DNA of 64,000 nt, taken from the NCBI GenBank assembly GCA_902529115.1, contig CABZVB010000007.1:1-64000 (forward strand), given 5' to 3'. The notes beneath the pieces were generated by a model. That model made no database searches. It had not been told where the DNA came from and saw nothing but the letters and a program-made list of their open reading frames with translations. Origin of the DNA: an uncultured Balneola sp. (GTDB lineage: Bacteria; Bacteroidota; Rhodothermia; Balneolales; Balneolaceae). The translations under genes were made by a program, and so were the position numbers. Below, in pieces: positions 7,036-64,000 of this stretch; within the stretch, counting starts at the first letter, position 1; each line of letters begins with the position of its first letter.

Positions 7036-7177
7036 AGGAGTACATTTAGCCAAGTTGGTAACTTTTTGTTGTGTCATGGTTGCTGATTGTATTGAGGTGA
7101 AGCTAAAAAAAAATCACCTTACAACCCACTAAACATACTAGATGTATATCATTCATCATATCAACGAGATTGATGCA

Positions 7178-8345: not shown

Positions 8346-8456
8346 CTCCATTAAGTGAGATTTATGTGTTTTTGGTTGGTACATGTCATGAGTAAAATGG
8401 CTAGTAATATATAAGCAAAAATTTATATATTATAACTGATTAATAAACATAAGTAT

Positions 8457-47812: not shown

Positions 47813-50293
47813 ATGAACTACGGTAAACCAACAATGTGGCGTTTGGCCATACTATTTATTATATCAACATTCACCTTTACGGCTTGTTCGACCTTTAAAA
47901 AAGCAGAAGCGCCAACACCTAAGGCCAGCGCACCAAAACCATCTTCTAAAAAAGGGGATATGAAGGCCTTTACCGATGTAATAACAGATAAAGCAATCTC
48001 TGATGAGGGGGTATTTACAGTCCATAAAGTAGATGAAAAGTATTATTTTGAGATTCCTAAGGAAATACTCGACCGAGAAATGCTATTGGTTAGTAGAGTG
48101 GCAGGAACAACACAAAATCTTAGCTTTGGTGGGGCCGGGCAAAAAGCTCGTTCACAGCAGGTGATTCGGTGGCAGCAAAAAGAAAAACAAGTACTTTTAC
48201 GCCATGTATCATACTCGAGTGTAGCTGATGCTGATGATCCAGTTTATAATTCTGTTAAAAACAACAATTTTGAACCTGTAATTGAGACTTTTAAAATCGA
48301 GGCTATGAGCGATGATAGTTCTTCTATAGTTATTGACGCCTCTGGTCTGTACACTTCTGACATACCTTTGTTAAGTGGATTGAGTTCATTTCAGCGTAGA
48401 AATTTTCAGGTAAGAAGGCTAGATGGCTCAAGAACCTTTATCGAACGAATGGCTAGTTATCCAGAGAATTTAGAAGTACGACATGTGTTAACATATGATG
48501 CAGCAAGTCCACCAGATGATGCAACAACTGGAACAATTTCCTTAGAAATGAATCAATCGATGATTCTTTTGCCAGAAGAACCTCATACACCTCGAAATCA
48601 CGATATGAGAGTAGGCTATTTCTCGATTTCACAATACGATTATAGTTCAGAAAAACATCGAGCGGATCAAAACAGATATATTACTCGTTGGAAATTAGTT
48701 CCATCAGACAAACAAGCATATTTACGTGGAGAGTTAGTTGAGCCTGAAGAGCCTATCGTTTATTATTTAGATCCGGCCACCCCTGAAAAGTGGAGAACAT
48801 ACCTCATTCAAGGAATTGAAGATTGGAATGTTGCATTTGAAGCTGCTGGCTTTAAGAATGCCATTATTGGTAAAGAAGCACCAACACCTGAGGAAGATCC
48901 AGAATTTTCTCCGGAAGATGTTCGATACTCGGTTATACGCTACATCACCAATCCTATCCAAAATGCACAAGGTCCACACGTGCATGACCCAAGAACGGGT
49001 CAAATCTTAGAAAGTGATATTTTATGGTATCATAACGTGATGAACCTATTACGGAACTGGTTCTTTATACAGACAGCCGCGGTAAACCCAGATGCTCGAA
49101 ATGTAGATTTTGATACTGAATTAATGGGTGAATTAGTTCGCTTTGTATCTGCGCACGAAGTTGGTCATACATTAGGTTTACCACATAATATGGGTTCTAG
49201 TGCTGGTTATACAGTTGAACAACTGCGAGATCCGGAGTTTACATCAACTCATGGTGTATCACCATCTATCATGGACTATGCGCGGTTCAATTATGTCGCA
49301 CAACCAGGCGATGGCGTTACAAATTTCTTCCCAATGGTAGGAGAATATGATATTTGGTCGATCAATTGGGGGTATAGGTGGTTTCCCGACGTGGAAGAAG
49401 CTGATGATGAAAATAAAATTCTTCATGACATGATAATGGCTAATGGCGACGATCCACTTTATTTTTTTGGGTATGCCAATGGTTCTGACCCTCGTTCACA
49501 AACTGAAGCTATAGGTGATGATGCGATGGAAGCCAGTGAATTAGGGATTGCAAATTTGGAGCGTATCACAGGTAACCTCATTGAGTGGATAGAAAAACCA
49601 GGTCAGGACTATGATGATTTAGCCGAGCTTTACAGTAATGTTATTTCACAGTGGAGACGATATATGGGACATGTTACCACTTATATTGGAGGGGTATACG
49701 AAACCTATAAAACATTTGATCAGGATGGGGTTGTCTACGAAGTTGTGGATGAAATAGATCAGCGACGATCAATGGAGTTTCTCCAAGAATATGCCTTCTC
49801 TACGCCAACCTGGGCATTTAACAGAGATATATTGGATCGCATCAATGAATCTACTGCTGTTGAAACTTTTCGCTCGGCACAGTCAGGTGTACTTAATGGG
49901 GTGCTCAATCCAGCCAGAATTGCTCGTCTAACCGAAGCAGAAACACGTACTGACGCCGATACCTATACTCTTTTTGAGATGATGGATGATTTGCGCAATG
50001 GTATATTTAGTGAATTACGTGCCAATGAAAATATAGATGTACATCGTAGACACTTACAACGAGCCTATGTAGAGCGAATGGAGTATATGATGACCCAAGA
50101 GCCATCAGGATTCTTTGGTTCACGTGTAGATGTAAGTCAATCTGATATCAGACCATCCGTACGTAATCAGCTAATTTTATTACGCAGAGATTCAGGACGA
50201 AGAATCAGTGCAGGTAATATCGATCGAAATACTCGTGTTCATTTGGAAGATATCATCGCTCGAATTGACAACATTCTTGATGAGAATGATTAA
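47813..50293 (+). CDS. zinc-dependent metalloprotease lipoprotein (DUF5117/DUF5118 type)
   Basis: Large exported protease of 826 aa. The signal peptide ends in FTACS, a lipobox. An N-terminal DUF5118/DUF5117 region (about 50-400) precedes the catalytic motif HEVGHTLGLPH (H448, E449, H452, H458) and the Met-turn SIMDYARF. Such proteins are widespread in FCB bacteria and act on periplasmic or extracellular peptides. A 103-nt gap separates it from the sortilin-like gene; joint transcription is possible. Substrate unknown. Confidence 0.9.
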   Translation: MNYGKPTMWRLAILFIISTFTFTACSTFKKAEAPTPKASAPKPSSKKGDMKAFTDVITDKAISDEGVFTVHKVDEKYYFEIPKEILDREMLLVSRVAGTTQNLSFGGAGQKARSQQVIRWQQKEKQVLLRHVSYSSVADADDPVYNSVKNNNFEPVIETFKIEAMSDDSSSIVIDASGLYTSDIPLLSGLSSFQRRNFQVRRLDGSRTFIERMASYPENLEVRHVLTYDAASPPDDATTGTISLEMNQSMILLPEEPHTPRNHDMRVGYFSISQYDYSSEKHRADQNRYITRWKLVPSDKQAYLRGELVEPEEPIVYYLDPATPEKWRTYLIQGIEDWNVAFEAAGFKNAIIGKEAPTPEEDPEFSPEDVRYSVIRYITNPIQNAQGPHVHDPRTGQILESDILWYHNVMNLLRNWFFIQTAAVNPDARNVDFDTELMGELVRFVSAHEVGHTLGLPHNMGSSAGYTVEQLRDPEFTSTHGVSPSIMDYARFNYVAQPGDGVTNFFPMVGEYDIWSINWGYRWFPDVEEADDENKILHDMIMANGDDPLYFFGYANGSDPRSQTEAIGDDAMEASELGIANLERITGNLIEWIEKPGQDYDDLAELYSNVISQWRRYMGHVTTYIGGVYETYKTFDQDGVVYEVVDEIDQRRSMEFLQEYAFSTPTWAFNRDILDRINESTAVETFRSAQSGVLNGVLNPARIARLTEAETRTDADTYTLFEMMDDLRNGIFSELRANENIDVHRRHLQRAYVERMEYMMTQEPSGFFGSRVDVSQSDIRPSVRNQLILLRRDSGRRISAGNIDRNTRVHLEDIIARIDNILDEND

Positions 50294-50396
50294 TTAATTT
50301 TATTTTCAAAAAGTCCTTTAAAGTTCGGGGATTTTTTTTACCCTTATTTTATGAAGCAATAGCGTCTATAATTATTCTAACTAAATTACTCTGATT

Positions 50397-53300
50397 ATGA
50401 AAGTTTTACCACGATTTTTCCCTTTTAATATAGCATTAGTCATTACTTTCTCAACGATGTTAAGTGCTCAGCAAGTCGATATGGAATTATTAAAATCTAT
50501 AGAACCCCGTAATATTGGTCCAGCTGGGATGTCAGGTAGGATTACCGCAATCGATGTGGTAGAATCCAATCACGATGTAATGTATGCTGGTTCTGCCTCT
50601 GGTGGGATTTGGAAATCTGAAAGTGGAGGTGTAGCCTGGAAGCCTATATTTGACGAGTATGGAGTAGCCTCTATTGGTGCAATTGATATTTATCAAGACA
50701 GTCCAGACATTGTTTGGGTAGGTACCGGCGAGGGTAATCCGCGTAACTCTCAGACATCCGGCGCTGGAGTATATCGAAGTTTGGATGGAGGGCGAAGTTT
50801 TGACTTTATGGGTCTAGAAGGGGTTCGTAATATCCACCGAATCATCGTTCATCCTAAAGATCCAAATACAGTATGGGTTGGTGGCCAGGGTGATGCATGG
50901 GCGGATAGCGAGCATCGTGGTGTGTATAAGACTACCGATGGTGGTGAGACTTGGGATAAAATTTTTTATGTAAACAGCCGCACTGGTGTGGGTGATATGG
51001 TAATGGATCCAAGTAACCCCAATAAAATCCTGGTTAACATGTGGGAATTCCGACGTTGGCCTTGGTTTTTTAAGTCTGGTGGTGAAGGTTCTGGAATGTT
51101 TATGACCTTGGATGGTGGTGAAACATGGAACGAAGTTACTGACGAAAATGGATTACCCGAAGGAGAATTAGGCAGAATGGGTATCGCATTTTCATCGTCC
51201 AAACCAAACATTGTCTACGCAATCATCGAATCCAGTGCGAATGCTATCTACAGAAGTGAAGATGGTGGTTTTACTTGGGAACAAAGACAAACCGTTAAGG
51301 ATGATCCAGATGTAGGGAATAGGCCGTTCTATTATTTTGAAATATATGTAGATCCATTTAATGAAAACCGGGTCTACAGTATCTACACTTATATGTCTGT
51401 GAGTGAAGATGGAGCGAAAAACTTTGAGAGTCTTTATCCATATTACAACTGGGTACATCCTGATCACCATGCTTTTTGGATGAGTCCAACTAATCCTGGC
51501 TTTATTGTACAAGGAAACGATGGTGGACTAAATATTTCGCATGATGGCGGCAAAACATGGCGCTTTGCGGAAAATATACCTGTGGGTCAATACTATCATG
51601 TTAGCGTAGACATGGAAATTCCATATAACGTTTATGGTGGTATGCAGGATAACGGTTCATGGGAAGGTCCTGCTTATGTTTGGAGAGAAGGGGGGATTCG
51701 AAACGCCTATTGGGATGAATTATTCTTTGGAGATGGTTTTGATGTGATGATGGATCCAAGTGACTCTCGATACCTTTATGCTATGTCACAACAGGGTAAT
51801 GTAGGAAGAGTTGACCGAGAAACTGGAAGCGCCCGCTTCGTAAAACCAACCCATCCCGATGGAGATAACTTACGATTTAACTGGAATGCAGCGATTAACT
51901 TTGATCCATTTGATAAAGAAACCGTCTATTTTGGAAGTCAGCATGTTCATAAAAGTACTGATCGAGGAGAAAGTTGGACCATAATTTCTCCAGATTTAAC
52001 TACGAACGATACAACCAAGCAAAAGCAGCATGAGAGTGGTGGTTTGACCATGGATGCCACTGGAGCTGAAAATCATACAACTATTTTAGCTATCGAGCCT
52101 AGTCCAGTTGAAGAAAACATTATTTGGGTAGGTACTGATGATGGCAATATTCAAGTAACAACCGATGGAGGGGTAAATTGGACTAATACTGCGAATAACA
52201 TCAAAGGCATTCCTCAGGGAAGTTATATAGCTCAGGTGAAAGCGTCGGCTTTCAATGCTGGAGAAGCAGTTGCGGTTATTAATAATTATCGTCGTGGAGA
52301 TTGGACCCCGTATGTAGTGCATACTACCAATTATGGAAAAAAGTGGACCAATATCGTAGAGAATAAAGGCTTAGAAGGCTACGCTTTATCCTTTGTTCAA
52401 GATTTAGTAGAACCTAATCTAATGTTTGTAGGGACTGAGTTTGGATTATATTTCACGATTGATGGGGGAGATAATTGGACACGATGGACCAATGGTTATC
52501 CAACTGTTTCTACTTATGATATGGTCATTCAACCACGTGAGCATGACTTGGTGATTGGTACATTTGGTCGTTCTTTTTGGGTCCTAGATGATATAAGACC
52601 ACTTCGAGAGTTAGCAACTGAAGGAGCAAATGAACTTGAAAAAGCTATTAAAGCCTTTGATAGTCCAGATGCTTATTTAGTAAACTGGCGTCAAGCTATG
52701 GGAACTCGATTTGCCGCCGATGCTATGTACTCGGGTGATAATCGACCTCGTGGGGCCATGATCTCCTATTCTGTGAATAAAGAGTTATCTCAAAAGTCCG
52801 AAAAAATAGATGCACCTTCTGCAAAAGGTCGTTCAAGGGCAAAAAGAGGATCGGATGAAGAAAAAGTTAAAGTGGCTATATTTAACGAATTAGGTGAAAA
52901 TATTCGCAATATTGAAGTTACTCCAGAACATAATGGTGTAAATCGTATGCAATGGGGGCTAGAACGAAAAGGAATGCAGCGCCCATCACGAAGAGCTATT
53001 CGTCCAAACATGCCAGAACCACGCGGTGGTAATGTATTGCCGGGAACTTATAAAATAGTAATGAGCTATGCTGGTAGTAAAGATTCTACCATGGTTACTG
53101 TTCATTACGATCCAAGGATAGAAATTACGATGGAAGCTCTGGAAGCTACAGCGGCACTAGAAGACGAAGGGGGAATGCTGGGAGCTGAATTAGCTGAAGC
53201 AGTTCAAAAGCTTGTTACAGCTGAATCAATTATGAAGGTAAACAAAGGAATACTAGACGCGGACCCGCGGTCTGCTGAAGATTTAAAAGCTGTGCGTAAT

Positions 53301-53621
53301 GTACACAGAACAACACATGTAAGTTTGGATGCCTTGTTTGCTCACATTTTTGGAAGTGATGATGACGAGCGTCAAGGCATTGTTCGGAATCCTGAAGTAA
53401 CAGTAATGTCAAGATTATATGGGGTTGGAAGGTATTTCGGTAATGACGTTGATGGCCCTGGAGTTACTGAGGAAAATTTACTCAGACTTGCTAGGGAAGC
53501 AGTAACGGAAGCCCTGAAGAAAATTGATGATTTCTTAAACCAAGAATGGCCTGCCTATGAGGCTGCGGTTCGAGAAGCTAATCTAAGTCCATTTAAATCC
53601 TTATCCGGCAAGGATAATTAA
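50397..53621 (+). CDS. secreted sortilin/VPS10-like beta-propeller protein (glycosyl hydrolase-like BNR repeats)
   Basis: Exported protein of 1074 aa with a Sec signal peptide (MKVLPRFFPFNIALVITFST, ending about AQQ). Many BNR/Asp-box-like repeats occur, such as SLDGGRSFDF, TTDGGETWDK, SEDGGFTWEQ, SHDGGKTWRF and TIDGGDNWTRW. These form one or two beta-propellers as in sortilin, Vps10 or sialidase-fold proteins. A long C-terminal region (from about 830) contains coiled-coil-like helices. No catalytic residues of a sialidase are evident, so a binding or peptidase-partner role is as likely as hydrolysis. The desaturase-family gene follows 17 nt downstream. Confidence 0.85.
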   Translation: MKVLPRFFPFNIALVITFSTMLSAQQVDMELLKSIEPRNIGPAGMSGRITAIDVVESNHDVMYAGSASGGIWKSESGGVAWKPIFDEYGVASIGAIDIYQDSPDIVWVGTGEGNPRNSQTSGAGVYRSLDGGRSFDFMGLEGVRNIHRIIVHPKDPNTVWVGGQGDAWADSEHRGVYKTTDGGETWDKIFYVNSRTGVGDMVMDPSNPNKILVNMWEFRRWPWFFKSGGEGSGMFMTLDGGETWNEVTDENGLPEGELGRMGIAFSSSKPNIVYAIIESSANAIYRSEDGGFTWEQRQTVKDDPDVGNRPFYYFEIYVDPFNENRVYSIYTYMSVSEDGAKNFESLYPYYNWVHPDHHAFWMSPTNPGFIVQGNDGGLNISHDGGKTWRFAENIPVGQYYHVSVDMEIPYNVYGGMQDNGSWEGPAYVWREGGIRNAYWDELFFGDGFDVMMDPSDSRYLYAMSQQGNVGRVDRETGSARFVKPTHPDGDNLRFNWNAAINFDPFDKETVYFGSQHVHKSTDRGESWTIISPDLTTNDTTKQKQHESGGLTMDATGAENHTTILAIEPSPVEENIIWVGTDDGNIQVTTDGGVNWTNTANNIKGIPQGSYIAQVKASAFNAGEAVAVINNYRRGDWTPYVVHTTNYGKKWTNIVENKGLEGYALSFVQDLVEPNLMFVGTEFGLYFTIDGGDNWTRWTNGYPTVSTYDMVIQPREHDLVIGTFGRSFWVLDDIRPLRELATEGANELEKAIKAFDSPDAYLVNWRQAMGTRFAADAMYSGDNRPRGAMISYSVNKELSQKSEKIDAPSAKGRSRAKRGSDEEKVKVAIFNELGENIRNIEVTPEHNGVNRMQWGLERKGMQRPSRRAIRPNMPEPRGGNVLPGTYKIVMSYAGSKDSTMVTVHYDPRIEITMEALEATAALEDEGGMLGAELAEAVQKLVTAESIMKVNKGILDADPRSAEDLKAVRNVHRTTHVSLDALFAHIFGSDDDERQGIVRNPEVTVMSRLYGVGRYFGNDVDGPGVTEENLLRLAREAVTEALKKIDDFLNQEWPAYEAAVREANLSPFKSLSGKDN

Positions 53622-53638
53622 ACAGGCAAAAAAACACG

Positions 53639-54505
53639 ATGGAAATCTTCATTGATTTTTTTGAGAATATATCTTCTACTTTTCGAGCAGGAATACTGGT
53701 TGGGGGTATATTTATATTCTGGATTATCGAAGGTGTTTTTCCTCTCTTCAGCTTTGGCTATAATAAATTCCGTCATGCCTTAATCAACGGGTTGCTTACC
53801 TTATTTTTTGTGCTCATTGGACTAGGATTTGCATCCCTACTTTTGATGGCATCACAATGGGTTTCTCAGCAGGATATTGGTCTTATTAATTGGATTTCCA
53901 TGCCCCTATGGATGCAAGTTTTAGTTGGAGTATTGCTCCTTGATTTATTTGGAGCTTATTTAGTTCACTGGGTGGAGCACAAAGTAAAATTCTTATGGAA
54001 GTTTCATTTGGTTCATCATAGTGATACACATGTAGATGTAACTACGGGGCTTCGACACCATCCAGGGGAGGCCTTATTTCGAATGTTGTTTACTATTCTT
54101 GGAGTGGTGGTGGTTGGAGCTCCTATATGGTTGGTTTTTTTATACCAAACATGTTCAGTTGTCTTCACTCACTTTAATCATGCTAACATTTCAATGTCAT
54201 CCTCTTTAGATAAGGTACTTTCTTGGGTGCTAGTTACACCAAATATGCATAAAGTGCACCATCATTATAAACAACCATATACAGATACAAATTATGGGAA
54301 TATATTTGCTATCTGGGATAGACTTTTTGGTACCTTTGCTCAGATAAATGATTCCACCAAGTTAACTTATGGCATTGATACACACATGAATCCTAAAGAA
54401 CATGAAGATGTTGTTAATTTACTTAAGATCCCTTTTCAGCCCTACAGACCACCAAGTGGATCTAAGTTTTCTGAAATCAATAAAAAGAAAGATTCATTGA
54501 AATAA
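53639..54505 (+). CDS. fatty acid hydroxylase / sterol desaturase family protein
   Basis: Integral membrane di-iron enzyme of 288 aa with four or five helices. The histidine boxes are H110-x3-H114, H123-x2-H126-H127, H140-H141, H178-x2-H181 and H204-x2-HHH207-209, followed by TDTNYGNIFAIWDRLFGTF, the family ending. It hydroxylates or desaturates a lipid such as a fatty acid, carotenoid or sterol. It is probably co-transcribed with the sortilin-like gene. The lipid substrate is not visible. Confidence 0.9.
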   Translation: MEIFIDFFENISSTFRAGILVGGIFIFWIIEGVFPLFSFGYNKFRHALINGLLTLFFVLIGLGFASLLLMASQWVSQQDIGLINWISMPLWMQVLVGVLLLDLFGAYLVHWVEHKVKFLWKFHLVHHSDTHVDVTTGLRHHPGEALFRMLFTILGVVVVGAPIWLVFLYQTCSVVFTHFNHANISMSSSLDKVLSWVLVTPNMHKVHHHYKQPYTDTNYGNIFAIWDRLFGTFAQINDSTKLTYGIDTHMNPKEHEDVVNLLKIPFQPYRPPSGSKFSEINKKKDSLK

Positions 54506-54637
54506 TTTATGAATCATCTTTTCCTGAGTTTTAAAGCAGAGATTTTTATATTTCCCAAAATAATGAGTTTAAAATACTTGTATTTTATTACTGCACTTAG
54601 TCTTGCAATTGATTAAGAGAAAGTGCTTATTCAGTTA

Positions 54638-54647
54638 GAAGCGCTTC
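54638..54647. promoter_or_regulatory. LacI-family-type palindrome upstream of susC
   Basis: GAAGCGCTTC, a perfect 10-bp palindrome with the central CG and the AAGCGCTT core used by many LacI-family regulators. It lies 54 bp before the susC start codon. No lacI gene is in the window, so the regulator would be encoded elsewhere. Other genes of the locus lack a copy upstream. Confidence 0.4.
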
Positions 54648-54700
54648 AATTTTCCTGCTCTTCCGAACTAGATTGTCTTAAACAAATAATAATAAACACT

Positions 54701-57700
54701 ATGAATAAACAATATATAAAGGTATGGTCTATTGCATCCATGTGTGCTATAGTATCTATTTTTATTACACATGTGGGTAGTTCATTGGTATATGCTCAGG
54801 TGACTAATTTTGGAATAGAAACTATAGAATCAGTCAATGCGTCCAATGAAGATTATAAAATTATAGATGTATCTGGAACTGTCACAGATGCAGAAACAGG
54901 GGAGCCTATTCCTGCAGCGAATGTTGTTGTATTAGGTACAACTATTGGTACCAGTACCGATGCTGAAGGTAAATATTCTTTGACCGTGCCAGATGATGCA
55001 GAAATTTTACAATTCAGTTATCTAGGTTATGTAACAGTAGAGGTTCCTGTAAGTGGTCGATCGGTAATTGATGTAAGTTTGGAGCAAGATCTTCTATTTT
55101 TAGATGATCTTGTAGTTGTTGGATACGGTACTCAACAACGACAGGAAGTAACTGGAGCAATTACTTCCGTCCGCTCAGAAGAAATTCAAAACATTCCTGT
55201 ATCAAGTTTTGAAAATGCTTTGCAAGGTAGAATGGCAGGAGTAAATGTAGCAGAGTCTACAGGAGAGCCTGGAGCTTCTCCTCAGATTACCATACGTGGT
55301 ACAGGTTCGATTTCAGCAGGTAACTCTCCTCTATATGTAATAGATGGTGTTCCAATTACAACTAATCGAAATTTACAGTCAGACATAGGTAGTCAACGTT
55401 CATCATTTCAACCACCCAGTGCGAATCCACTTGCTACAATTAATCCAAATGATATAGAGTCTATTGAGGTTTTAAAAGATGCTTCAGCAGCTGCAATTTA
55501 TGGTTCAAGGGGATCTAATGGGGTTATCTTAATTACTACTAAGCAGGGTTCTGCGGGTAGAACATCTATAAATTTTAGTTCTTATTTAGGGGTCTCTAAT
55601 GTATTCAACAAGCCAGATATGATGAATGCAGAGGATCTAATTCAATACACAAAGGAATCCCGTAACAATAACTACTTACAAGAAATTGAAGTTGGTAATC
55701 AAGCCGCAAACCCAGATTATAATCCAGATACAAATGCTGGTCGACCAAACGTATCTCATTTTTTAATTCCTGAACAGTATGTTAACTGGAATGGAACAGA
55801 TACAGATTGGTTAGATTTAATATTTAGCCCTGCATCTATGCAAAATTATGATCTATCCATTAGTGGTGGAAATGCTACTACGACATATGCCTTTTCAACA
55901 GGTTATTTGGATCAAGAAGGTGTTATTGAAGGATCAGCATTTCAACGTTATACACTGCGATTGGGATTAACGCATAAGATGAATAATGATATTACTATTG
56001 GTGCTAATATGAATTCAGCCCTAGCGCAGCATGATCGTTTACCTGCTAATGCAGCTTATTTTGGACAACCCCCTGGGATTGTTTATTCAGCAATGGTTCA
56101 TTCACCAGTAGTTGCGCCATACAATGATGACGGGACCATCAATCAACGAAACAATCAAGGCTTTTTAGGCGGTGGAACTTCATCCGCAAGTAATCCGCTA
56201 GCCATCATGAAATATATAAGCGAAGACATTCAAAATACTCGTGTCTTTGGAAATATGTTTGCGGATTATAATTTTAGTGAAAACATTACTTTTAAATCTT
56301 TGCTTGGATACAATGTGGAGACTATGCAGCAAAGTTTTTATAGAGGCACAGAATTTCTATATAGAACTCAGAGTTCTCCTCAGCCATTTGCTCAAACTGG
56401 TGCAGGTAATTTATTTAACTGGATCTGGGAAAATACTGTCAATTATTCCAATAATTTTGGAACGGACCACAAAGTGAATTTGATAGCAGGTTATACTGCC
56501 CAAAAAGAACGTATAGAACGAAGCGTAATCGAATCCAATGGGTTTACTGACGATCAAATAACTACTATCAATGGTGGTATTGTGAATAGTGGTGAGGAAG
56601 TTATTGAGGAATGGAGTTTGGTCTCAGCTCTAGCAAGACTAAACTATGTATTTCAGGATAAGTACCTATTGACAGCGACTGTTCGTTCAGATAGATCGTC
56701 TAGATTTGGTGCTAATAACCAGACTGGAATTTTCCCATCATTCTCACTTGGATGGAGAGCTAATCAAGAGAGCTTCTTAAGTGGTATTGATGATATTAGT
56801 GAATTGAAATTCAGAGCTAGTTATGGTGTTACTGGTAACTTTGAGATTCCTAATTATGGTGCTATAGGTTTACTCGGTGGAGCAAACTATGTTGATGGTT
56901 CTTCTCAAATTAATGGTGTAGCTCCGAGTACTTCTAGTAATGCCGATTTAACTTGGGAGACTACCTATCAAACAAACTTTGGTGTGGACTATGCTCTACT
57001 CAATGATAGAATATATGGTTCAGTAGATGTATATAACTCAACTACTCAAGATCTATTATTATTTGTGACAGTACCTGCTGCAAGTGGATTTGATGTTGCT
57101 TTGACTAATATTGGTGAAGTAGAGAACAATGGTTTTGAATTTTCTCTAACAAGTAGAAATATGGTAGGGCAATTCAGTTGGGCTACTGATTTCAACTTTG
57201 CTGCTAATGAAAATAAAGTAACTAAACTAGGTCCAGAAGGTGATGATATTCTGAGTAGTGGTGTTGCTGGTGCTCGGCATATTACCCGTATTGGCGATCC
57301 AATAGGAAGTTATTATGGATATATTGTTGAAGGTATATACCAGAATCAAGCAGAAATTGATGCAGCACCTGTAGATGAATTGGTTGGTTCAGGAGGTGCA
57401 AGACCTGGAGATTTTAGGTTTAAAGACGTCAATGGTGATGGTAAAATTACATCTGATGATCGAACTGTGACAGGTAGTTACCATCCTGATTATACTTATG
57501 GTATAACCAATAGATTTAACTACAGAAACTTTGATCTAAATATCTTTATTCAAGGTGTAATGGGTCGTGAAGTTTTAAATCTAACAGCACGCCACCTTAA
57601 AAATGGGGAAGCGAATTTTGGCTCCTATGCGGTTCTAAATGATCGTTGGAGATCTGAATTAGATCCTGGCAACGGTATACATCCAAGAGCTGATAGAAGA

Positions 57701-57994
57701 GGTAATACGCATGGTAATAACAATAGGCCATCCAGCTATCAAGTTGAAGATGGTAGTTATCTAAAAATCAAAAATTTATCATTTGGTTATACTCTGCCAG
57801 AAGACTTCTTGAATGGGGCATTTTCTCGAGCTAGGATTTATACGGCTATGACAAATTTGGCAATATTTACTGATTATATAGGATTTAATCCTGAAGTAAA
57901 TATTCAAAGAAACAGCAGTCTAACACCTGGCCAGGATTATGGAGCTTATCCATTATCAAGAACCATTCAGGTTGGCATAGATCTCGCATTTTAA
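54701..57994 (+). CDS. SusC/RagA-family TonB-dependent outer-membrane transporter
   Basis: Outer-membrane glycan transporter of 1097 aa. A signal peptide ending near VYAQ (about residue 33) is followed by a carboxypeptidase-regulatory-like domain (about 58-130, GTVTDAETGEPIPAANVVVLG). Then come the plug with VVGYGTQQRQEVTGAIT and GTGSISAGNSPLYVIDGVPI, AAAIYGSRGSNGVILITTK, and a 22-stranded barrel ending in IDLAF. The ATG at 54701 is used; an in-frame GTG at 54623 adds 26 residues before a normal signal peptide. susD follows 26 nt downstream. It imports oligosaccharide with TonB energy. Confidence 0.95.
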   Translation: MNKQYIKVWSIASMCAIVSIFITHVGSSLVYAQVTNFGIETIESVNASNEDYKIIDVSGTVTDAETGEPIPAANVVVLGTTIGTSTDAEGKYSLTVPDDAEILQFSYLGYVTVEVPVSGRSVIDVSLEQDLLFLDDLVVVGYGTQQRQEVTGAITSVRSEEIQNIPVSSFENALQGRMAGVNVAESTGEPGASPQITIRGTGSISAGNSPLYVIDGVPITTNRNLQSDIGSQRSSFQPPSANPLATINPNDIESIEVLKDASAAAIYGSRGSNGVILITTKQGSAGRTSINFSSYLGVSNVFNKPDMMNAEDLIQYTKESRNNNYLQEIEVGNQAANPDYNPDTNAGRPNVSHFLIPEQYVNWNGTDTDWLDLIFSPASMQNYDLSISGGNATTTYAFSTGYLDQEGVIEGSAFQRYTLRLGLTHKMNNDITIGANMNSALAQHDRLPANAAYFGQPPGIVYSAMVHSPVVAPYNDDGTINQRNNQGFLGGGTSSASNPLAIMKYISEDIQNTRVFGNMFADYNFSENITFKSLLGYNVETMQQSFYRGTEFLYRTQSSPQPFAQTGAGNLFNWIWENTVNYSNNFGTDHKVNLIAGYTAQKERIERSVIESNGFTDDQITTINGGIVNSGEEVIEEWSLVSALARLNYVFQDKYLLTATVRSDRSSRFGANNQTGIFPSFSLGWRANQESFLSGIDDISELKFRASYGVTGNFEIPNYGAIGLLGGANYVDGSSQINGVAPSTSSNADLTWETTYQTNFGVDYALLNDRIYGSVDVYNSTTQDLLLFVTVPAASGFDVALTNIGEVENNGFEFSLTSRNMVGQFSWATDFNFAANENKVTKLGPEGDDILSSGVAGARHITRIGDPIGSYYGYIVEGIYQNQAEIDAAPVDELVGSGGARPGDFRFKDVNGDGKITSDDRTVTGSYHPDYTYGITNRFNYRNFDLNIFIQGVMGREVLNLTARHLKNGEANFGSYAVLNDRWRSELDPGNGIHPRADRRGNTHGNNNRPSSYQVEDGSYLKIKNLSFGYTLPEDFLNGAFSRARIYTAMTNLAIFTDYIGFNPEVNIQRNSSLTPGQDYGAYPLSRTIQVGIDLAF

Positions 57995-58020
57995 TCGCAA
58001 TGATAAATAAGGAAATAGTC

Positions 58021-59379
58021 ATGAAAAAATTAATACTTACACTACTACTCCCGTTACTGTTTATCTCATGCAGCGAGGACTTTACAGTATTGGGACCAAT
58101 ATCTGAAAGAAATGTGGTCAACTACTACAAAACACAATCTGATTTTGAAGTTGCCATAAATGGAGCTTTTGATGCGTTACAATCTAATGGAACATTCGGT
58201 GTTAAATATGTTCTATTCATGGAAATGCGAGCCGATAATACAGCCAATGGTGGCGGAGCTACCGGCTTAGCCGAAACTCTTGAAGACATCGATACATTTG
58301 GAGAAATACCAACTGCAAGTGAATTAAATGACTCTTGGATAGCCTCTTATGATGGTATTGCTAGAGCAAATACTATAATTTCAAGGATTGATGATGTTAC
58401 CTTCACCAGTGATGATGTTAAAAACAGGATTAAAGGTGAAGCTCATTTTATTCGATCTATGTTATATTATCACTTAGCAGTTATCTTTGGGAATGTACCT
58501 CTAGTTACAGCTGAAGTTACAGCTCCTCAAAATATGAATTTGAATCAGGTTTCAGCTGATCAAGTTTTTGCACAAATTGCAACGGATCTTACCGCAGCTG
58601 AAGGTTTATTACCAACTACTGGTCGTGTTAGTTCTGGTGCAGCCGCCGCTTTATTGGGACGTGTATACTTACAAGCTGGTGATAATGCTTCGGCAGTAGC
58701 GCCATTGAAACGTGTAGTTGCTTCAAATGTTTATTCACTAGAAGCAAATTATGCTGATATATGGGGACCGGCCAACGAAGGAAGTAGTGAAATACTCTTT
58801 CAAGTAGAATTTATGAGTGGTAATGTAGGGGAGGGTAGTTCATTTACTGATATGTTTACTGCATCAGGCGTTGCTGGTGGTGTTGGTGGTGGTGTCGCAC
58901 CACAAACAGTTACTCAAGATTTTATTGATTCATATGAAGCTGGTGATTTACGTCAAGGAGCTACATTATCTGAAAGTGCTACAGTTGAGAAATTCGAAGA
59001 TAATCCAACTTCACCTTTTGATTCAGATGTAAATTGGGTAGAAATTCGGTACGCAGAAGTTCTTTTGAATCTTGCTGAGGCCGTCGGAGAAGGTGCAGAA
59101 GGCTATGGTTATATCAACCAGGTTCGTGCTCGTGCAGGCTTAGCAGCCATTGATGGAACAACACCTGGTTCATACAATGACAAATTACTTCATGAGCGTC
59201 GGATTGAGTTAGCATTTGAGAATAAGCGTTGGCCAGATCTTCTGCGACATGGAAAAGCTAAGAGTGTAATGGCCTCACACTTGAGTATAGGTGAAGGATC
59301 GGTAACTTTACTATTCCCTATACCTCAAAGTCAAATTGATGTTGCACCAGATGAAATGTCACAGAATGCAGAACATTAA
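58021..59379 (+). CDS. SusD/RagB-family glycan-binding lipoprotein
   Basis: Surface lipoprotein of 452 aa that forms the lid of the SusC pore. The signal peptide ends in lipobox LFISC. Typical segments are SERNVVNYYKTQSDFEVAINGAFDAL (cited as the DFEVAINGAF part), RSMLYYHLAVIFGNVPLV, AAALLGRVYLQAGD, and the C-terminal ERRIELAFENKRWPDLLRHG and LLFPIPQSQID. The ATG at 58021 is preferred over 58000 because it starts directly with MKKLILTLLLPLL. Followed by a strong terminator. Confidence 0.95.
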   Translation: MKKLILTLLLPLLFISCSEDFTVLGPISERNVVNYYKTQSDFEVAINGAFDALQSNGTFGVKYVLFMEMRADNTANGGGATGLAETLEDIDTFGEIPTASELNDSWIASYDGIARANTIISRIDDVTFTSDDVKNRIKGEAHFIRSMLYYHLAVIFGNVPLVTAEVTAPQNMNLNQVSADQVFAQIATDLTAAEGLLPTTGRVSSGAAAALLGRVYLQAGDNASAVAPLKRVVASNVYSLEANYADIWGPANEGSSEILFQVEFMSGNVGEGSSFTDMFTASGVAGGVGGGVAPQTVTQDFIDSYEAGDLRQGATLSESATVEKFEDNPTSPFDSDVNWVEIRYAEVLLNLAEAVGEGAEGYGYINQVRARAGLAAIDGTTPGSYNDKLLHERRIELAFENKRWPDLLRHGKAKSVMASHLSIGEGSVTLLFPIPQSQIDVAPDEMSQNAEH

Positions 59380-59396
59380 TTTAAAATGAAGACTTT

Positions 59397-59433
59397 AACC
59401 GGGGTACTTAACACAGTACCCCGGTTTTTTTTT
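59397..59433 (+). terminator. intrinsic terminator after susCD
   Basis: A perfect 12-bp stem AACCGGGGTACT (59397-59408) with AGTACCCCGGTT (59415-59426), a 6-nt loop and a run of nine T. It separates the susCD transcript from the deacetylase-transporter-kinase set. Confidence 0.93.
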
Positions 59434-59498
59434 CTTTTAAATTGATTAAATGAAATATTCTGAGAAAAAGAATAATTACTAAAATAATATCTAACACT

Positions 59499-60389
59499 AT
59501 GAAACAAATAATACTTTTTATCTTTGCTGGAATTCTATCAACAGGTGTTTTTGCACAAATCCAAGATGGACCTTTAAATATTATAGCTGTTTTTGCACAT
59601 CCAGATGATGGGGACTCAAAAATGGGTGGGACAGCAGCTATGATGGCTAAAATGGGACATAATGTGAAATTTGTTTCTATTACAAATGGAGATGCAGGTC
59701 ATCACGAAGAGGGAGGAGGCATGTTAGCTAAAAGAAGAAGAGCAGAGGCTCAAGAAGCCGCAAGACAATTAGGAATTGCAGAGTATAAAGTATTAGATAA
59801 TCATGATGGTGAACTTTTACCAGAATTACATATTCGTCAACAGGTTATTCGTGAAATACGTAATTGGAATGCGGATGTGGTATTAGGTCTTCGGCCAAAT
59901 GACTATCACCCCGACCATCGTTATGCAGGTGTATTAGTACAAGATGTCGCTTATATGGTAGTAGTGCCAAACGTGACACCGGACACCCCTCCTTTGACAA
60001 AAAATCCTGTATTTTTATACATGAATGATCGATTTCAAAAGCCTAATCCATTTTCCCCAGATATTGTTATAGGAATAGATGCCGTATTTGAACAGAAAGT
60101 TAGAGGCCTAGATGCACATGAGTCACAAATGTATGAATGGCTTCCTTGGGTGGGAGGAAGATTAGATGAAGTGCCAGAAAGTAAAGAAGACCGATTTACA
60201 TATTTGACGAACTTATATACTAACCGTAGTAGCATATCCGATTTACAGAGAATAAGTCTAGAAAAGTGGTATGGTAAAGAAAAAGCAGCCTCGTTCCAAT
60301 TTGTTGAATCTTTTGAGATATGTGAATATGGACACCAGCCCAGTGATGAAGAAATTCGAGCAATTTTTCCAATGCTCAACAATAATTAA
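59499..60389 (+). CDS. PIG-L/LmbE family deacetylase, exported
   Basis: Zinc deacetylase of 296 aa with a Sec signal peptide (ending about VFAQ, residue 20). The metal-binding motif is AHPDD (H34, D36, D37) and the second motif is HPDH (H137, H140). Family members deacetylate N-acetylglucosamine-containing molecules. The export signal and position after susCD argue for action on an imported oligosaccharide rather than bacillithiol synthesis. It begins the second transcript of the locus. Confidence 0.88.
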   Translation: MKQIILFIFAGILSTGVFAQIQDGPLNIIAVFAHPDDGDSKMGGTAAMMAKMGHNVKFVSITNGDAGHHEEGGGMLAKRRRAEAQEAARQLGIAEYKVLDNHDGELLPELHIRQQVIREIRNWNADVVLGLRPNDYHPDHRYAGVLVQDVAYMVVVPNVTPDTPPLTKNPVFLYMNDRFQKPNPFSPDIVIGIDAVFEQKVRGLDAHESQMYEWLPWVGGRLDEVPESKEDRFTYLTNLYTNRSSISDLQRISLEKWYGKEKAASFQFVESFEICEYGHQPSDEEIRAIFPMLNNN

Positions 60390-60453
60390 ATACTCTCGAT
60401 GAATTCTATGAAAAGGATTCATCTTTTTTATTCTTATTAAACTAACCAATATT

Positions 60454-61701
60454 ATGCCTCGTAATTATTTCATGGTAGGGCTCATACTGCTCACCTTTTT
60501 TGTTATATCATTTTTAACTAACATTATTGGTCCTCTCGTACCAGAGATTATTGAGGATTTTGATCTTAGCCTAACTTTGGTCGCCTTACTTCCTTTCGCC
60601 TTTTTTATTGCATATGGAGTTATGTCTATCCCAGCAGGGATACTTATTGAAAGATATGCGGAAAAAAAAGTCATGATATTAGCCTTTGGGATAGCATTTT
60701 TTGGAGCATTATTGTTTTCTTTAATCCCTAGTTACCTGGTTGCAGTATTGTCACTATTTTTAATTGGAACAGGCATGGCTATGCTTCAAGTAGCGATTAA
60801 CCCACTGCTAAGGGTGTCTGGTGGAGAAGAGCATTTTGCCTTTAATTCATTGATTGGACAGTTATTTTTCGGTGCAGCCTCTTTTTTAAGTCCACTTGCC
60901 TACTCTTATTTGGTTTTAAATATGGGACAAGTTGACAATGGTTGGTTTTTGCAAATGCTGAGTTCTATGGTGCCTGATAATTTACCTTGGGTATCACTTT
61001 ATTGGTTGTTTGCTATGGTATCTTTGTTAATGATGGTCATTATTGCGATCTCCAAATTTCCAGAAGTAATAAAGACAGATGACGAAAAAATAGGCGCTTT
61101 ACAAACTCACATCGATTTACTTAAGAACAAAAAAGTGCTACTATTCTTCTTTGGAATCTTTTGCTATGTGGGAACCGAACAAGGAGTTGCTAACTGGATG
61201 TCAGAATTTTTGTCTACCTATCATGGATTAGATCCTCAAACGGTAGGGGCTTCTGTGGTGTCTACATTTTGGGGATTAATGACAGCGGGCACGGTATTGG
61301 GCTTATTCTTGCTAAAAATTATGGATTCTCGGAAAGTACTCATTCTATTCACTTCTATTGTACTAATTTGTCTAGCAGTAGCATTATTTGGATCTGCAAA
61401 TATTGCTAGAGTGGCATTTCCTGCCATTGGTTTCTTTATCGCGGTCATGTGGCCCATTATTTTTTCTTTAGCACTTAACTCTATTGAAGAGCATCATGGA
61501 TCTTTTTCTGGTATTTTGGTTACAGGAATTGCTGGCGGTGCCATTGTTCCTTTGATTGTGGGCTCATTGGGGGATGTTTTTGGTCTTCGAGCTGGAATGA
61601 TCTTCCTGTTCCTAACCTATGGGTACATTCTAAGTATAGGGTTTTGGGCTAAACCCATTATTGCTAATAAAACAATAGAATTCGGTAAAAAAGATAATTA
61701 G
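60454..61701 (+). CDS. MFS sugar transporter, FucP-like
   Basis: Major facilitator of 415 aa with about twelve helices. NIIGPLVPEIIEDFDLSLTLVALLPFAFFIAYGVMSIPAGIL is the first helical pair (quoted in part: PEIIEDFDLSLTL and GVMSIPAGIL). This resembles the L-fucose:proton symporter family used for monosaccharides in FCB bacteria. The ROK gene starts 2 nt after its stop, so import and phosphorylation are coupled. The sugar is not known. Confidence 0.9.
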   Translation: MPRNYFMVGLILLTFFVISFLTNIIGPLVPEIIEDFDLSLTLVALLPFAFFIAYGVMSIPAGILIERYAEKKVMILAFGIAFFGALLFSLIPSYLVAVLSLFLIGTGMAMLQVAINPLLRVSGGEEHFAFNSLIGQLFFGAASFLSPLAYSYLVLNMGQVDNGWFLQMLSSMVPDNLPWVSLYWLFAMVSLLMMVIIAISKFPEVIKTDDEKIGALQTHIDLLKNKKVLLFFFGIFCYVGTEQGVANWMSEFLSTYHGLDPQTVGASVVSTFWGLMTAGTVLGLFLLKIMDSRKVLILFTSIVLICLAVALFGSANIARVAFPAIGFFIAVMWPIIFSLALNSIEEHHGSFSGILVTGIAGGAIVPLIVGSLGDVFGLRAGMIFLFLTYGYILSIGFWAKPIIANKTIEFGKKDN

Positions 61702-61703
61702 CC

Positions 61704-62558
61704 ATGTTATTGGGTATTGATTTAGGGGCAACAAACCTACGGATTGGCAGGGTTCTTCGTGGAAAGATAGAAACCATAAAACAGGCTCCAATTGATCAAA
61801 CCGATGATCCAGATACTTTAATAAATCAAATTTTGTCACTTATTGAATCTTGTTGGCATCCAGCTATCAGTTCAATTGGAGTTGGGGTTCCTAGTGTGGT
61901 AGATATAGACAGGGGAATTGTCTATGATGTTCAAAATATACCCTCATGGAAAGAAGTACACCTAAAAGATATCTTAGAAGAACGTTTTTCAGTTTCTACT
62001 TCGGTCAATAACGATGCGAATTGTTTTGTTCTCGGAGAGCGGTATTTTGGCCAGGCAAAAGATAAAAAAAATATAATTGGCCTAATTATAGGTACCGGTT
62101 TTGGTGCGGGTATAGTACTCAATGGGAGGTTAGTATCCGGTACTAACTGCGGAGCAGGTGAAGTGGGCATGTTGCCATACAGAGAATCCATATTGGAGCA
62201 CTATTGTTCCGGGCAATTTTTTGAACGATTTTTTGGCCAGAAAGGAGCTTCCATATATGAGAAAGCTCAACAAGGACATCAAGAGGCCATTGATATATAC
62301 TCTGAGTATGCACATCATATTTCCGAAGGTATTAAGGCCGTACTATATGCTTATGACCCAGAAATGATACTGCTTGGGGGCGCAACTGCACAGGTTTGGT
62401 CTTTTATAGAAAAAAAAGTTTGGAAGGGATTAGAAAACTTCGCCTATCCAAATTCACTGAAGGGTCTCCATATCTCACCCTCTACGCTAGAGCATGTCGC
62501 AGTGCTAGGTGCAGCTGCTTTGGTCTTAGATTCAACTAATGATAACCCCTCGAATTAA
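61704..62558 (+). CDS. ROK-family sugar kinase
   Basis: Cytoplasmic sugar kinase of 284 aa. The phosphate motif is GIDLGATNLRIG, the catalytic Asp is in NNDANCFVLGE, and GLIIGTGFGAGIVLNG follows. The zinc motif of classic ROK kinases (GH...CxCGxxGC) is absent: the region reads GAGEVGMLPYRE...HYCSGQFFE. That variant is one I associate with FCB-group ROK proteins. It probably phosphorylates the sugar brought in by the adjacent MFS transporter. Confidence 0.88.
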   Translation: MLLGIDLGATNLRIGRVLRGKIETIKQAPIDQTDDPDTLINQILSLIESCWHPAISSIGVGVPSVVDIDRGIVYDVQNIPSWKEVHLKDILEERFSVSTSVNNDANCFVLGERYFGQAKDKKNIIGLIIGTGFGAGIVLNGRLVSGTNCGAGEVGMLPYRESILEHYCSGQFFERFFGQKGASIYEKAQQGHQEAIDIYSEYAHHISEGIKAVLYAYDPEMILLGGATAQVWSFIEKKVWKGLENFAYPNSLKGLHISPSTLEHVAVLGAAALVLDSTNDNPSN

Positions 62559-62606
62559 TACTGACATAATCAATTATTATCATCACACATACGAAGGAAA
62601 GAATTC

Positions 62607-64000
62607 ATGAAAAATTATCAGCCGTTTACCATCAAACCTATCATAATTTTTTTGATTGGGATTTTTATCCTTCATAATCAAACGGGTGTACAGGCTCAAA
62701 GTAATTCGTACAGCATTCCTGTAGAGGTGAAAGATAATGTTCCGGATACCCCACAACTACTTGGTATACCTATTCCAAAAGGTACACTTTACTCATCTGA
62801 TTATGTGCGGGTACTAAATGCTTATGGACAGGAAATTCCTTCACAAATCACCAAGGTGAGTACATGGGAACCTGCAGATGCTTCCATTAAATGGATTTGG
62901 GTATTTTTCTTTTCGCAGGAAGAAGATTCGTACACAGTTGAATATGGTGATGATATCCGAAATGGGCGATTATATGATAAAGTGCTTACTGTCAACAATA
63001 ATCAGCGCCCAACAGGCGAAGTGGAAGTGAATACTGGACCACTGCGTTTCACCATCGAAAAAGGAATAGGAGGTGGTTATTTAAATGCACCACCAAGCAG
63101 TGGATTTATGGATAAAGTGGAACTAGATTTAGAAGGAGATGGCTTTGAAGAGGATGATATTATCGCTACAGGTGCAGCCCAACGCGCTAATTTTTTGGAT
63201 ATACTGGATGATGCTGGCCTTGACCCCTCTAAAGCCGTTGTGACTCGTACGGTTAAGGAATTAGGCACTGGACCGCTTCATGCCATAATTAGAGTTGAAG
63301 GAGAATATCACTATGAACGAGAGGATAATAATTCTGCTCCTTTTGTAATCCGTATTCATGCCTATGCAGGAAAAAGTTATGTGCGTGTACAACATACTTT
63401 TGTTTATACGGGGGTTCCTGACAAACATACCAAACAGTTGGGAGAGTATGAGGCTATAGCAACACAGATGGAGAACATCATTGATGAAGAACCATTGAGT
63501 CAAGATCCTGGCTTTACCCAAGCTAATGACCGTATTGCAGCATTGGGACTACGATTGGATTATAAGCTCAAAGATAATACAACGGTATACACCGAAGCCT
63601 TTAATGAAGCTTGGTATAATCCTATGACTACCCAAGCATTCAGTACTTCCCTTAAGGGACAGAAAGCTTTTTCATTATTGCAGTCAGGACCCAATCCTTC
63701 ACAAATACCTCCTCTGGAGAATTCTGGGTCAAATGCGCGTATGGAGGGAGTATTTGAAGCAAGCTGGGGGATAGAAGGGGGTTCAAAGTCAACGGCAGAG
63801 CGAGCTCCAGGTTGGATTACTATAGCCGACGATGAACGAGGTATCACGGTAGCGTTTGATCAGTTTTTCGAGGAATATCCAAAAGAACTAATGGTTGATG
63901 ACGCCGCAAAAATCTTACAGGCCTATGCCTGGACGCCCAACGTAGAACCTCTGAGTTTTGCCAAACAAAACAATAATATCGACAGCGGGATGATAGCTAA
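62607..64000 (+). CDS. PcRGLX/YetA-like exo-rhamnogalacturonan lyase family protein, 3' end outside window
   Basis: The frame opens at the ATG at 62607 and stays open to the window end, at least 464 codons. A signal peptide (to about QAQ, residue 31) is followed by a RIFT-barrel-like domain: YSIPVEVKDNVPDTPQLLGIPIPKG, of which QLLGIPIPKGTLYSS is diagnostic, then IKWIWVFF. This is the PcRGLX/YetA-like N-terminal domain of the family containing exo-acting rhamnogalacturonan lyases (PL26). The catalytic part lies downstream. It would release sugars for the adjacent transporter. The polysaccharide is inferred only from the family. Confidence 0.8.
   Translation, partial: MKNYQPFTIKPIIIFLIGIFILHNQTGVQAQSNSYSIPVEVKDNVPDTPQLLGIPIPKGTLYSSDYVRVLNAYGQEIPSQITKVSTWEPADASIKWIWVFFFSQEEDSYTVEYGDDIRNGRLYDKVLTVNNNQRPTGEVEVNTGPLRFTIEKGIGGGYLNAPPSSGFMDKVELDLEGDGFEEDDIIATGAAQRANFLDILDDAGLDPSKAVVTRTVKELGTGPLHAIIRVEGEYHYEREDNNSAPFVIRIHAYAGKSYVRVQHTFVYTGVPDKHTKQLGEYEAIATQMENIIDEEPLSQDPGFTQANDRIAALGLRLDYKLKDNTTVYTEAFNEAWYNPMTTQAFSTSLKGQKAFSLLQSGPNPSQIPPLENSGSNARMEGVFEASWGIEGGSKSTAERAPGWITIADDERGITVAFDQFFEEYPKELMVDDAAKILQAYAWTPNVEPLSFAKQNNNIDSGMIA

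Follow-up and report, generated by a model that had tools for sequence, protein, structure and literature searches.

A recurrent SusCD locus with a PIG-L deacetylase and a PL26-fold protein in an uncultured Balneola sp., putatively involved in the use of acidic amino-sugar conjugates

Which substrate is handled by a gene cluster that combines a SusC/SusD pair with a PIG-L deacetylase, a sugar carrier, a ROK sugar kinase and a protein resembling the polysaccharide lyase PcRGLX? The question is raised by the end of a stretch of 64,000 nucleotides (here called the window) from the draft genome of an uncultured Balneola sp. (1.97 Mb, 87.6% complete), which corresponds to positions 1-64000 of contig C7; the contig extends to 70786. 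As proposed in the initial annotation, six genes encoding SusC, SusD, PIG-L, an MFS carrier, a ROK kinase and the PcRGLX-like protein lie in one direction, and family-model matches and coordinates agree on this (Table 1). The PcRGLX-like gene runs past the end of the window and was completed on the contig. Inspection of the sequence beyond 64 kb, suggested in the initial annotation as a check for further enzymes, revealed a DASS carrier gene which overlaps the PcRGLX-like gene by 8 bases. The best explanation of the whole, in which we have moderate confidence, is the uptake and breakdown of a small conjugate in which an N-acetylated amino sugar is joined to an acidic partner.

Table 1. Features of the locus; positions refer to the window unless given for the contig.
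Feature	Position	Strand	Match or remark
Palindrome GAAGCGCTTC	54638..54647	.	LacI-type; 54 bp 5' of the susC ATG
susC, TonB-linked outer-membrane receptor without STN signalling domain	54701..57994	+	TIGR04056, 909 bits
susD, surface-binding lipoprotein	58000..59379	+	SusD_RagB, 90 bits, and SusD-like_3, both over cut-off
Intrinsic-terminator-like hairpin after susD	59397..59426	+	12 pairs, T tract, z -7.1
PIG-L (LmbE-like) de-N-acetylase, signal-peptide-like N-terminus	59499..60389	+	PF02585, 91 bits
Weaker terminator-like hairpin before the MFS gene	60398..60423	+	10 pairs, 3 G-C
MFS sugar carrier, GluP/FucP/NagP type	60454..61701	+	MFS_1, 108 bits; TIGR01272, 137 bits (below cut-off)
ROK sugar kinase, Met156 clade	61704..62558	+	PF00480, 146 bits
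PL26-fold (PcRGLX-like) protein, 901 aa	62607..64000 in the window, to 65312 on the contig	+	PcRGLX_2nd, PcRGLX_3rd; fold model
DASS carrier, beyond the window	contig 65305-66897	+	TIGR00785, 294.5 bits (cut-off 198.6)

The scan for relatives, with one genome per species, yielded 149 of them, and all neighbourhood counts given here refer to the best 80 of these 149, 55 of the 80 being untruncated. The 80 neighbourhoods span Balneolota, Bacteroidota, KSB1, Caldithrix, Neomarinimicrobiota and Acidobacteriota, with flavobacteria, sphingobacteria, Chitinophaga, Cytophagales and Saprospiraceae among the Bacteroidota. The relatives include cultured species, such as Pedobacter caeni, Flagellimonas olearia and Polaribacter irgensii. 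A further 20 neighbourhoods were picked from the 37 genomes with a match to the PcRGLX-like protein that are described below; they repeat the order SusC-SusD-PIG-L-MFS-ROK-PL26-like-DASS, although single genes may be missing or displaced. The 55 untruncated neighbourhoods contain genes for PIG-L (55), ROK (50), SusC (50), SusD (50), MFS (49), FecR (43), an ECF sigma factor (34), DASS (30) and an SDF carrier (7). No enzyme family beyond those named here recurs among the 80 neighbourhoods. The locus is real and conserved across several phyla, and the earlier impression of an isolated oddity, unlike any standard polysaccharide utilisation locus (PUL), has to give way to that of a recurrent locus with a largely fixed order.

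Within the phylum the locus protein was found in 22 of 392 genomes, 21 of them in the class of the window, so that in this sample the locus is sporadic and not universal. The PcRGLX-like protein was matched in 37 of 146 genomes, the genome of the window included; the match is a contig-end fragment in genome G005 and partial in G006 and G022, and in G020, G040, G054 and G055, which hold canonical PL26 proteins, it reaches only 22-30% identity. Its closest named match among the best 80 comes from a Balneola sp. metagenome-assembled genome (97% identity). Among the literature matches listed, no title or abstract describes this gene set. The terms PL26, PIG-L, deacetylase, GlcNAc (N-acetylglucosamine) and ROK gave no hit in a term search of the retrieved text of PMC6298971, and PMC11713874 concerns, in its retrieved part, a CE4 enzyme and is not relevant to the locus.

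A PIG-L protein of one of three types is encoded in 72 of the 80 neighbourhoods, including all 55 untruncated ones. The protein of the window matches PF02585 over the cut-off and has the His-Asp-His metal site with the Asp kept, as is characteristic for the LmbE-like superfamily; residues H34, D36, D37, D139, H140 and R80 are invariant across 15 sequences, the roles of the metal and catalytic residues being assigned from section 2.3 of PMC4101496. Its nearest solved relatives are the diacetylchitobiose deacetylase PH0499 and BshB. The N-termini of this protein and of the PcRGLX-like protein were judged by eye with respect to export, and the deacetylase is apparently exported. In Pedobacter and Acidobacteriota it is swapped for an 830-aa PIG-L protein, and a third type of 287 aa joins or replaces the usual one in some loci.

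The PcRGLX-like protein matches the Pfam families PcRGLX_2nd (51 bits) and PcRGLX_3rd (47 bits) over the cut-off, however only partially, and PcRGLX_1st remains below the cut-off. We built a structure model from 64 family members with a predicted local distance difference test score (pLDDT) of 90.9, replacing a model from 14 sequences (pLDDT 72). The best solved match of the model is PcRGLX (5xq3, 5xqo), with template modelling (TM) scores of 0.64-0.68 over the whole chain and a Z-score of 29.6 at 3.0 A over 708 residues. According to this model the protein has the three-domain PL26 fold, at 17-20% identity to PcRGLX. The two differ in their gene company and in two features of sequence. The deposited PcRGLX sequences are not identical, since a Tyr is changed to Phe in the crystal with the tetrameric substrate (5xqo), and from this exchange we infer that the Tyr is a catalytic residue. 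It is present in PcRGLX and in six of six canonical bacterial homologues from relatives (43-48% identical to the PcRGLX segment), whereas all 16 locus members sampled have Phe or Trp at this position. A nine-residue loop is deleted as well, and the Asn beside the lost Tyr position is invariant in all 64 family members. With the Tyr missing, the protein shares the fold of PL26, yet PL26 enzyme activity is not assured. Paired canonical PL26 homologues were seen in L171 and L172 (genomes G054 and G020), in neighbourhoods unlike the studied locus; G020 also has KduI and KDPG aldolase.

The remaining proteins are carriers and a kinase. The MFS carrier stays under the TIGR01272 cut-off of 202 bits, and its nearest solved relative is FucP. 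In 68 of 69 members of this clade, Met156 occupies the position at which a His of the zinc and sugar site is usual for ROK kinases. The mark of DASS carriers are two SNT motifs, and both are present in the protein encoded beyond the window. Among solved structures, the dicarboxylate cotransporter NaDC3 is nearest to this protein, the sulfate carrier SLC13A1 being matched at a lower score. In 28 loci the DASS gene lies immediately 3' of the PL26-like gene on the same strand. Pedobacter- and Chitinophaga-type loci have an SDF carrier in its place, and the one SDF carrier tested passes the DctA cut-off (571.7 vs 513). Such non-homologous swaps, between PIG-L types on the one hand and between DASS and SDF/DctA on the other, suggest that de-N-acylation and a C4-dicarboxylate carrier are retained as functions. 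Since carriers for C4-dicarboxylates were chosen repeatedly, the compound linked to the amino sugar may itself be a dicarboxylate or be converted to one.

An amino-sugar product is suggested by further genes. Twelve of the 80 neighbourhoods, of which seven belong to the 55 untruncated ones, encode a glucosamine-6-phosphate deaminase, as a stand-alone gene in L088, L098, L105 and L140 and as a deaminase-PIG-L fusion in L082, L115, L117, L134, L137, L141, L144 and L151. One of each kind was tested: the deaminase of L098 passes TIGR00502 and the fused protein of L151 passes NF002557. A deaminase-type gene, PIG-L, ECF, FecR and susC are consecutive in G024 and G011; in G026 the series consists of PIG-L, the deaminase-PIG-L fusion, ECF, FecR and susC. 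Pathway genes were compared in 57 relatives, 15 of which have an orthologue among the matches to the PcRGLX-like protein and are termed carriers (G000-G007, G009, G011, G022, G024, G026, G090 and G093, several of them incomplete drafts); G020, with canonical PL26 proteins only, was not counted as a carrier. The deaminase family PF01182 was matched in 14 of the 15 carriers vs 24 of the 42 non-carriers, and all 14 contain a reading frame that, at 638-656 aa, is as long as the deaminase-PIG-L fusion. NagA, the GlcNAc-6-phosphate deacetylase, was found at E 1e-20 in none of the 15 carriers and in 5 of the 42 others. The amino-sugar involvement suspected in the initial annotation, and with it the assignment to a sugar-conjugate utilisation locus, is supported by the counts for PIG-L, for the deaminase in the neighbourhoods and for the deaminase family in the carriers. 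A sugar MFS carrier, a ROK kinase and, in relatives, a deaminase recall the NagP/NagK/NagA/NagB system; the locus differs from it in the missing NagA and in a deacetylation that apparently takes place outside the cytoplasm. Away from the locus, several Balneolaceae encode an NF002557-type deaminase-PIG-L fusion (L169:7022-8947, L170:7557-9485 and others), which may do the work of NagA and NagB in a single protein.

The function that we propose is the following. SusCD would move the conjugate across the outer membrane. Outside the cytoplasm, PIG-L would strip the N-acyl group and the bond between the amino sugar and the acidic half would be broken by the PL26-fold enzyme, with beta-elimination as the probable mechanism. 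Once freed, the amino sugar would be imported by the MFS carrier and phosphorylated by the ROK kinase, and glucosamine-6-phosphate deaminase, encoded off-locus in the lineage of the window and in the locus elsewhere, would lead to fructose 6-phosphate, so that NagA is bypassed. DASS, or DctA in some lineages, would import the acidic half, most likely a C4-dicarboxylate, and susC would be controlled via a LacI-type operator. The genes, their order and conservation, the gene swaps, the conservation of the operator, the loss of FecR and STN, the PL26 fold and the presence or absence of pathway genes are direct observations; the location of the enzymes, the order of the steps, the elimination chemistry and both products are predicted. 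This is most likely an amino-sugar locus in which deacetylation precedes splitting, as it does in the archaeal chitin route of the diacetylchitobiose deacetylase Dac and GlmA.

Several observations weigh against this proposal. Without the PL26 Tyr, a beta-elimination is not assured. Eight neighbourhoods have no PIG-L gene, and in the four of these with flanks long enough to judge (L102, L118, L139 and L140) none is adjacent. PF01182 was not found in the draft genome of the window itself; the deaminase-type gene is also common in non-carriers, and PF01182 covers 6-phosphogluconolactonases as well. NagA is scarce even in non-carriers, so that its absence is weak evidence. A DASS or SDF carrier is present in only 36 of the 55 untruncated loci, and some Balneolaceae have the DASS gene on the other strand, in the company of genes for a CBM9/DUF5916 protein and a nucleotidyltransferase and of a glmS-like gene, where its link to the locus may be accidental.

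The explanation that survives best beside this one, although unlikely, takes the archaeal model further: the locus would serve chito-oligosaccharides or peptidoglycan fragments, PIG-L deacetylating the non-reducing GlcNAc and a PL26-fold hydrolase freeing glucosamine, with a side role for DASS. In the archaeal route, as described in the retrieved part of PMC6566704, a PIG-L protein likewise acts before the amino-sugar bond is cut, and PH0499 is the nearest solved relative of the deacetylase. Furthermore, the C-terminal helical domain of the PL26-fold protein is also similar to an exo-glucosidase/glucosaminidase (6gdt, Z 21.9) and a GH9 exo-glucosaminidase (5dgq, Z 18.7). These glucosaminidase matches, however, are confined to a single, common domain and come after sugar epimerases in the ranking, whereas PL26 is matched by the whole chain. 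The recurrent DASS/DctA carrier would be left unexplained and no further enzyme family recurs in the loci. The locus differs from the archaeal system in that no GlmA-like enzyme was seen, and in having SusCD, a PL26-fold enzyme and a dicarboxylate carrier.

We regard as decidedly unlikely a locus whose lyase acts on a polysaccharide in which uronic acid and hexosamine alternate, similar to hyaluronan, heparosan or an exopolysaccharide. In such a locus the PL26-fold enzyme would produce an unsaturated uronate and PIG-L would deacetylate the hexosamine. The fold would suit such a reaction, and PIG-L and the deaminase fit the hexosamine half. The genes for the uronate half are mostly wanting. KduI was found in 3 of the 15 carriers and 8 of the 42 others, KDPG aldolase over the cut-off in 3 and 15, respectively, and both co-occur in the same three carriers (G001, G026 and G093), which speak for this explanation. 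The other 12 carriers have neither gene; four of them (G007, G011, G024 and G090) are 98-100% complete, so that the usual route for a hexuronate product is missing there, the alternative DhuI/DhuD route not having been searched. No unsaturated glucuronyl hydrolase of the GH88/GH105 type recurs among the named Pfam and BLAST labels, and the PL26 Tyr is missing. Both NagA and KduI are rare throughout the group, so that these absences are supporting and not decisive. In view of the lost Tyr and the 12 carriers lacking both genes, the pectic or uronate-containing glycan that had been considered at first is not supported.

The scavenging of glucosaminyl-malate compounds, that is bacillithiol, its conjugates or GlcNAc-malate, is very doubtful. 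To our knowledge, no dedicated route for the reuse of the redox thiol bacillithiol has been described. Here, a PIG-L amidase would free glucosaminyl-malate, and a PL26-fold glycosyl-malate lyase would eliminate fumarate and free glucosamine; fumarate would enter by DASS/DctA and glucosamine would be used by MFS, ROK and deaminase. Such a scheme accounts for every gene, in particular for the C4-dicarboxylate carriers, and is in line with the hexuronate genes missing in most carriers. The best NCBIfam match of the deacetylase is the model of BshB1, the GlcNAc-malate deacetylase of bacillithiol synthesis, at 107.5 bits, where the equivalog cut-off of 182.5 is not reached. The two share the metal ligands. 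In BshB, Arg53 and Arg109 bind the substrate and Arg109 contacts GlcNAc-malate (PMC4101496, section 2.3); the equivalent of Arg53 is kept as Arg80, that of Arg109 is Tyr136, which argues against this scheme. The protein also differs from BshB1 in being apparently exported and in its setting in an uptake locus. As to the PL26-fold protein, a glycan-type fold of 900 residues is large for so small a substrate. Finally, the label given in the initial annotation suggests a locus for rhamnogalacturonan-I whose PcRGLX-like protein is a true exo-rhamnogalacturonan lyase, and the fold and the partial Pfam match to PcRGLX speak for it. This is hardly tenable, since all 16 sampled members lack the PL26 Tyr and the nine-residue loop, the accompanying genes are those of amino sugars and not of rhamnose or galacturonate, and 12 of the 15 carriers lack KduI and KDPG aldolase.

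The recurrence of the locus in several phyla suggests that its substrate is common in the environment, and we did not find the use of such a substrate described. The proposed uptake and splitting of an acidic amino-sugar conjugate would predict an amino-sugar route that bypasses NagA by deacetylation outside the cytoplasm, as well as a new activity on the PL26 fold. With SusCD-type PULs controlled by ECF and FecR, the locus shares the tandem SusC/SusD genes and, in relatives, ECF and FecR before susC. In contrast to these, neither an endo-acting enzyme nor a glycoside hydrolase was recognised in it, its candidates for glycan breakdown being PIG-L and the PL26-fold protein, and FecR, ECF and STN are lost in the lineage of the window.

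The regulation of the locus was approached from the LacI-type palindrome that had been noticed before susC. As the start of susC we took the ATG (Table 1); the list of open reading frames offered a GTG at 54623, and with this start the palindrome would fall inside susC. Taken alone, GAAGCGCTTC could be chance: it has four sites in the genome vs three for the reversed control, and GAANCGNTTC has two matches in the window vs 0.78 expected, a number reached by 17 of 100 shuffles. Of the 69 related regions before susC, however, 12 contain the core AAGCGCTT, all 12 in the family of the window, vs 9 matches in 943 other upstream regions. These counts come from related species, which are not independent, and from a looser test with an 8-bp core chosen after earlier site inspection. 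The core is located 10-92 bp 5' of the susC reading frame (in L073 just within an over-long frame) and is kept in all sequences of a five-species alignment. Before fecR, 2 of the 13 regions with one FecR label have the core, and those with the other label have none. A test with the 16-bp palindrome found the site before susC in only three loci, because near-perfect flanks were demanded. The other LacI-type cores AACCGGTT, AAACGTTT and AATCGATT show no such concentration upstream of susC. From these sequence comparisons, the conservation of the operator does not look like chance, and the palindrome of the initial annotation stands as a putative operator.

Palindromes with other cores were seen in individual places. 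In L048:9513-9640 (G128), four AACCGGTT-centred palindromes lie about 40 bp apart upstream of susC, another spacing pattern of the LacI type. In L074 and L075, two species of the genus, a AAACGTTT-centred palindrome precedes the PIG-L gene by 35 bp; it is absent from the window.

A LacI gene, which had been looked for in and beyond the locus, is absent from it. The genome has three LacI genes, all outside the locus, and a locus-linked LacI gene was rejected as a general feature, no LacI family recurring in the 80 neighbourhoods apart from scattered matches. One of the three, an orphan LacI-family gene on contig C11 of the genome (L059:9787-10797), is a candidate regulator of the putative operator and has an orthologue in 82 of 97 relatives, be they carriers or not. 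It was not found in the drafts G002, G003 and G004, and the operator is present in two of these, G003 and G004. In its own right, this gene is a candidate global regulator of the order. A large regulon with the exact GAAGCGCTTC site was likewise rejected, as two of the other three genome sites are intragenic and one is intergenic. One GAAGCGCTTC site, at 7043, lies between two flagellin-like genes on contig C21 (L063:4176-5132 and 7366-8454); these neighbours have the same first 60 residues and were named by eye.

Most relatives have ECF sigma factor and FecR genes before susC, which agrees with the expectation that FCB loci (of the group comprising the Bacteroidota) are more often controlled by anti-sigma systems; for the lineage of the window itself this does not apply, as these genes are lost and the operator is kept. 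Long SusC proteins of the relatives (1169-1213 aa) are accompanied by FecR in 50 of 51 cases. In the single long SusC tested (G001, of the genus of the window), STN was detected at E 3e-5, below the Pfam cut-off. Seven SusC proteins of 1070-1123 aa come without FecR; the genes upstream are visible in L073, L074, L075, L082 and L140, and the stretches of L107 and L141 start at susC. The SusC of the window gave no STN hit, and in comparison to the relatives its N-terminal STN-bearing region is absent, the signal-peptide-like start being kept. A relocation of FecR was rejected, since BLAST at 1e-3 found no similarity between the sole FecR match in the genome (contig C14) and the reference set, which includes the FecR proteins of the locus. 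ECF/FecR/STN signalling was thus apparently lost in the lineage of the window, and more than once overall. The operator is kept in this lineage and in L082 despite the loss, a case in which FecR and the SusC STN domain vanish together while a LacI-type operator stays.

The strong hairpin between susD and the deacetylase gene (Table 1) makes more than one transcript likely, and expression of the locus is probably layered. As a general feature of the locus this hairpin was rejected, a comparable one being present in only 8 of 53 related intergenic regions.

On the contig, the DASS gene is followed by genes for WbqC (minus strand), gltX (plus strand, assigned by eye) and nhaC (minus strand). There was no hint of mobile or defence genes, viral, plasmid and defence collections not having been searched. 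Ahead of the locus, positions 47813-54505 of the window encode metalloprotease-like, 1074-aa sortilin/VPS10-like and fatty-acid-hydroxylase-type membrane proteins, which were named by eye. Genes of the sortilin/VPS10-like and fatty-acid-hydroxylase types are also located 5' of the locus in L073, L074 and L075.

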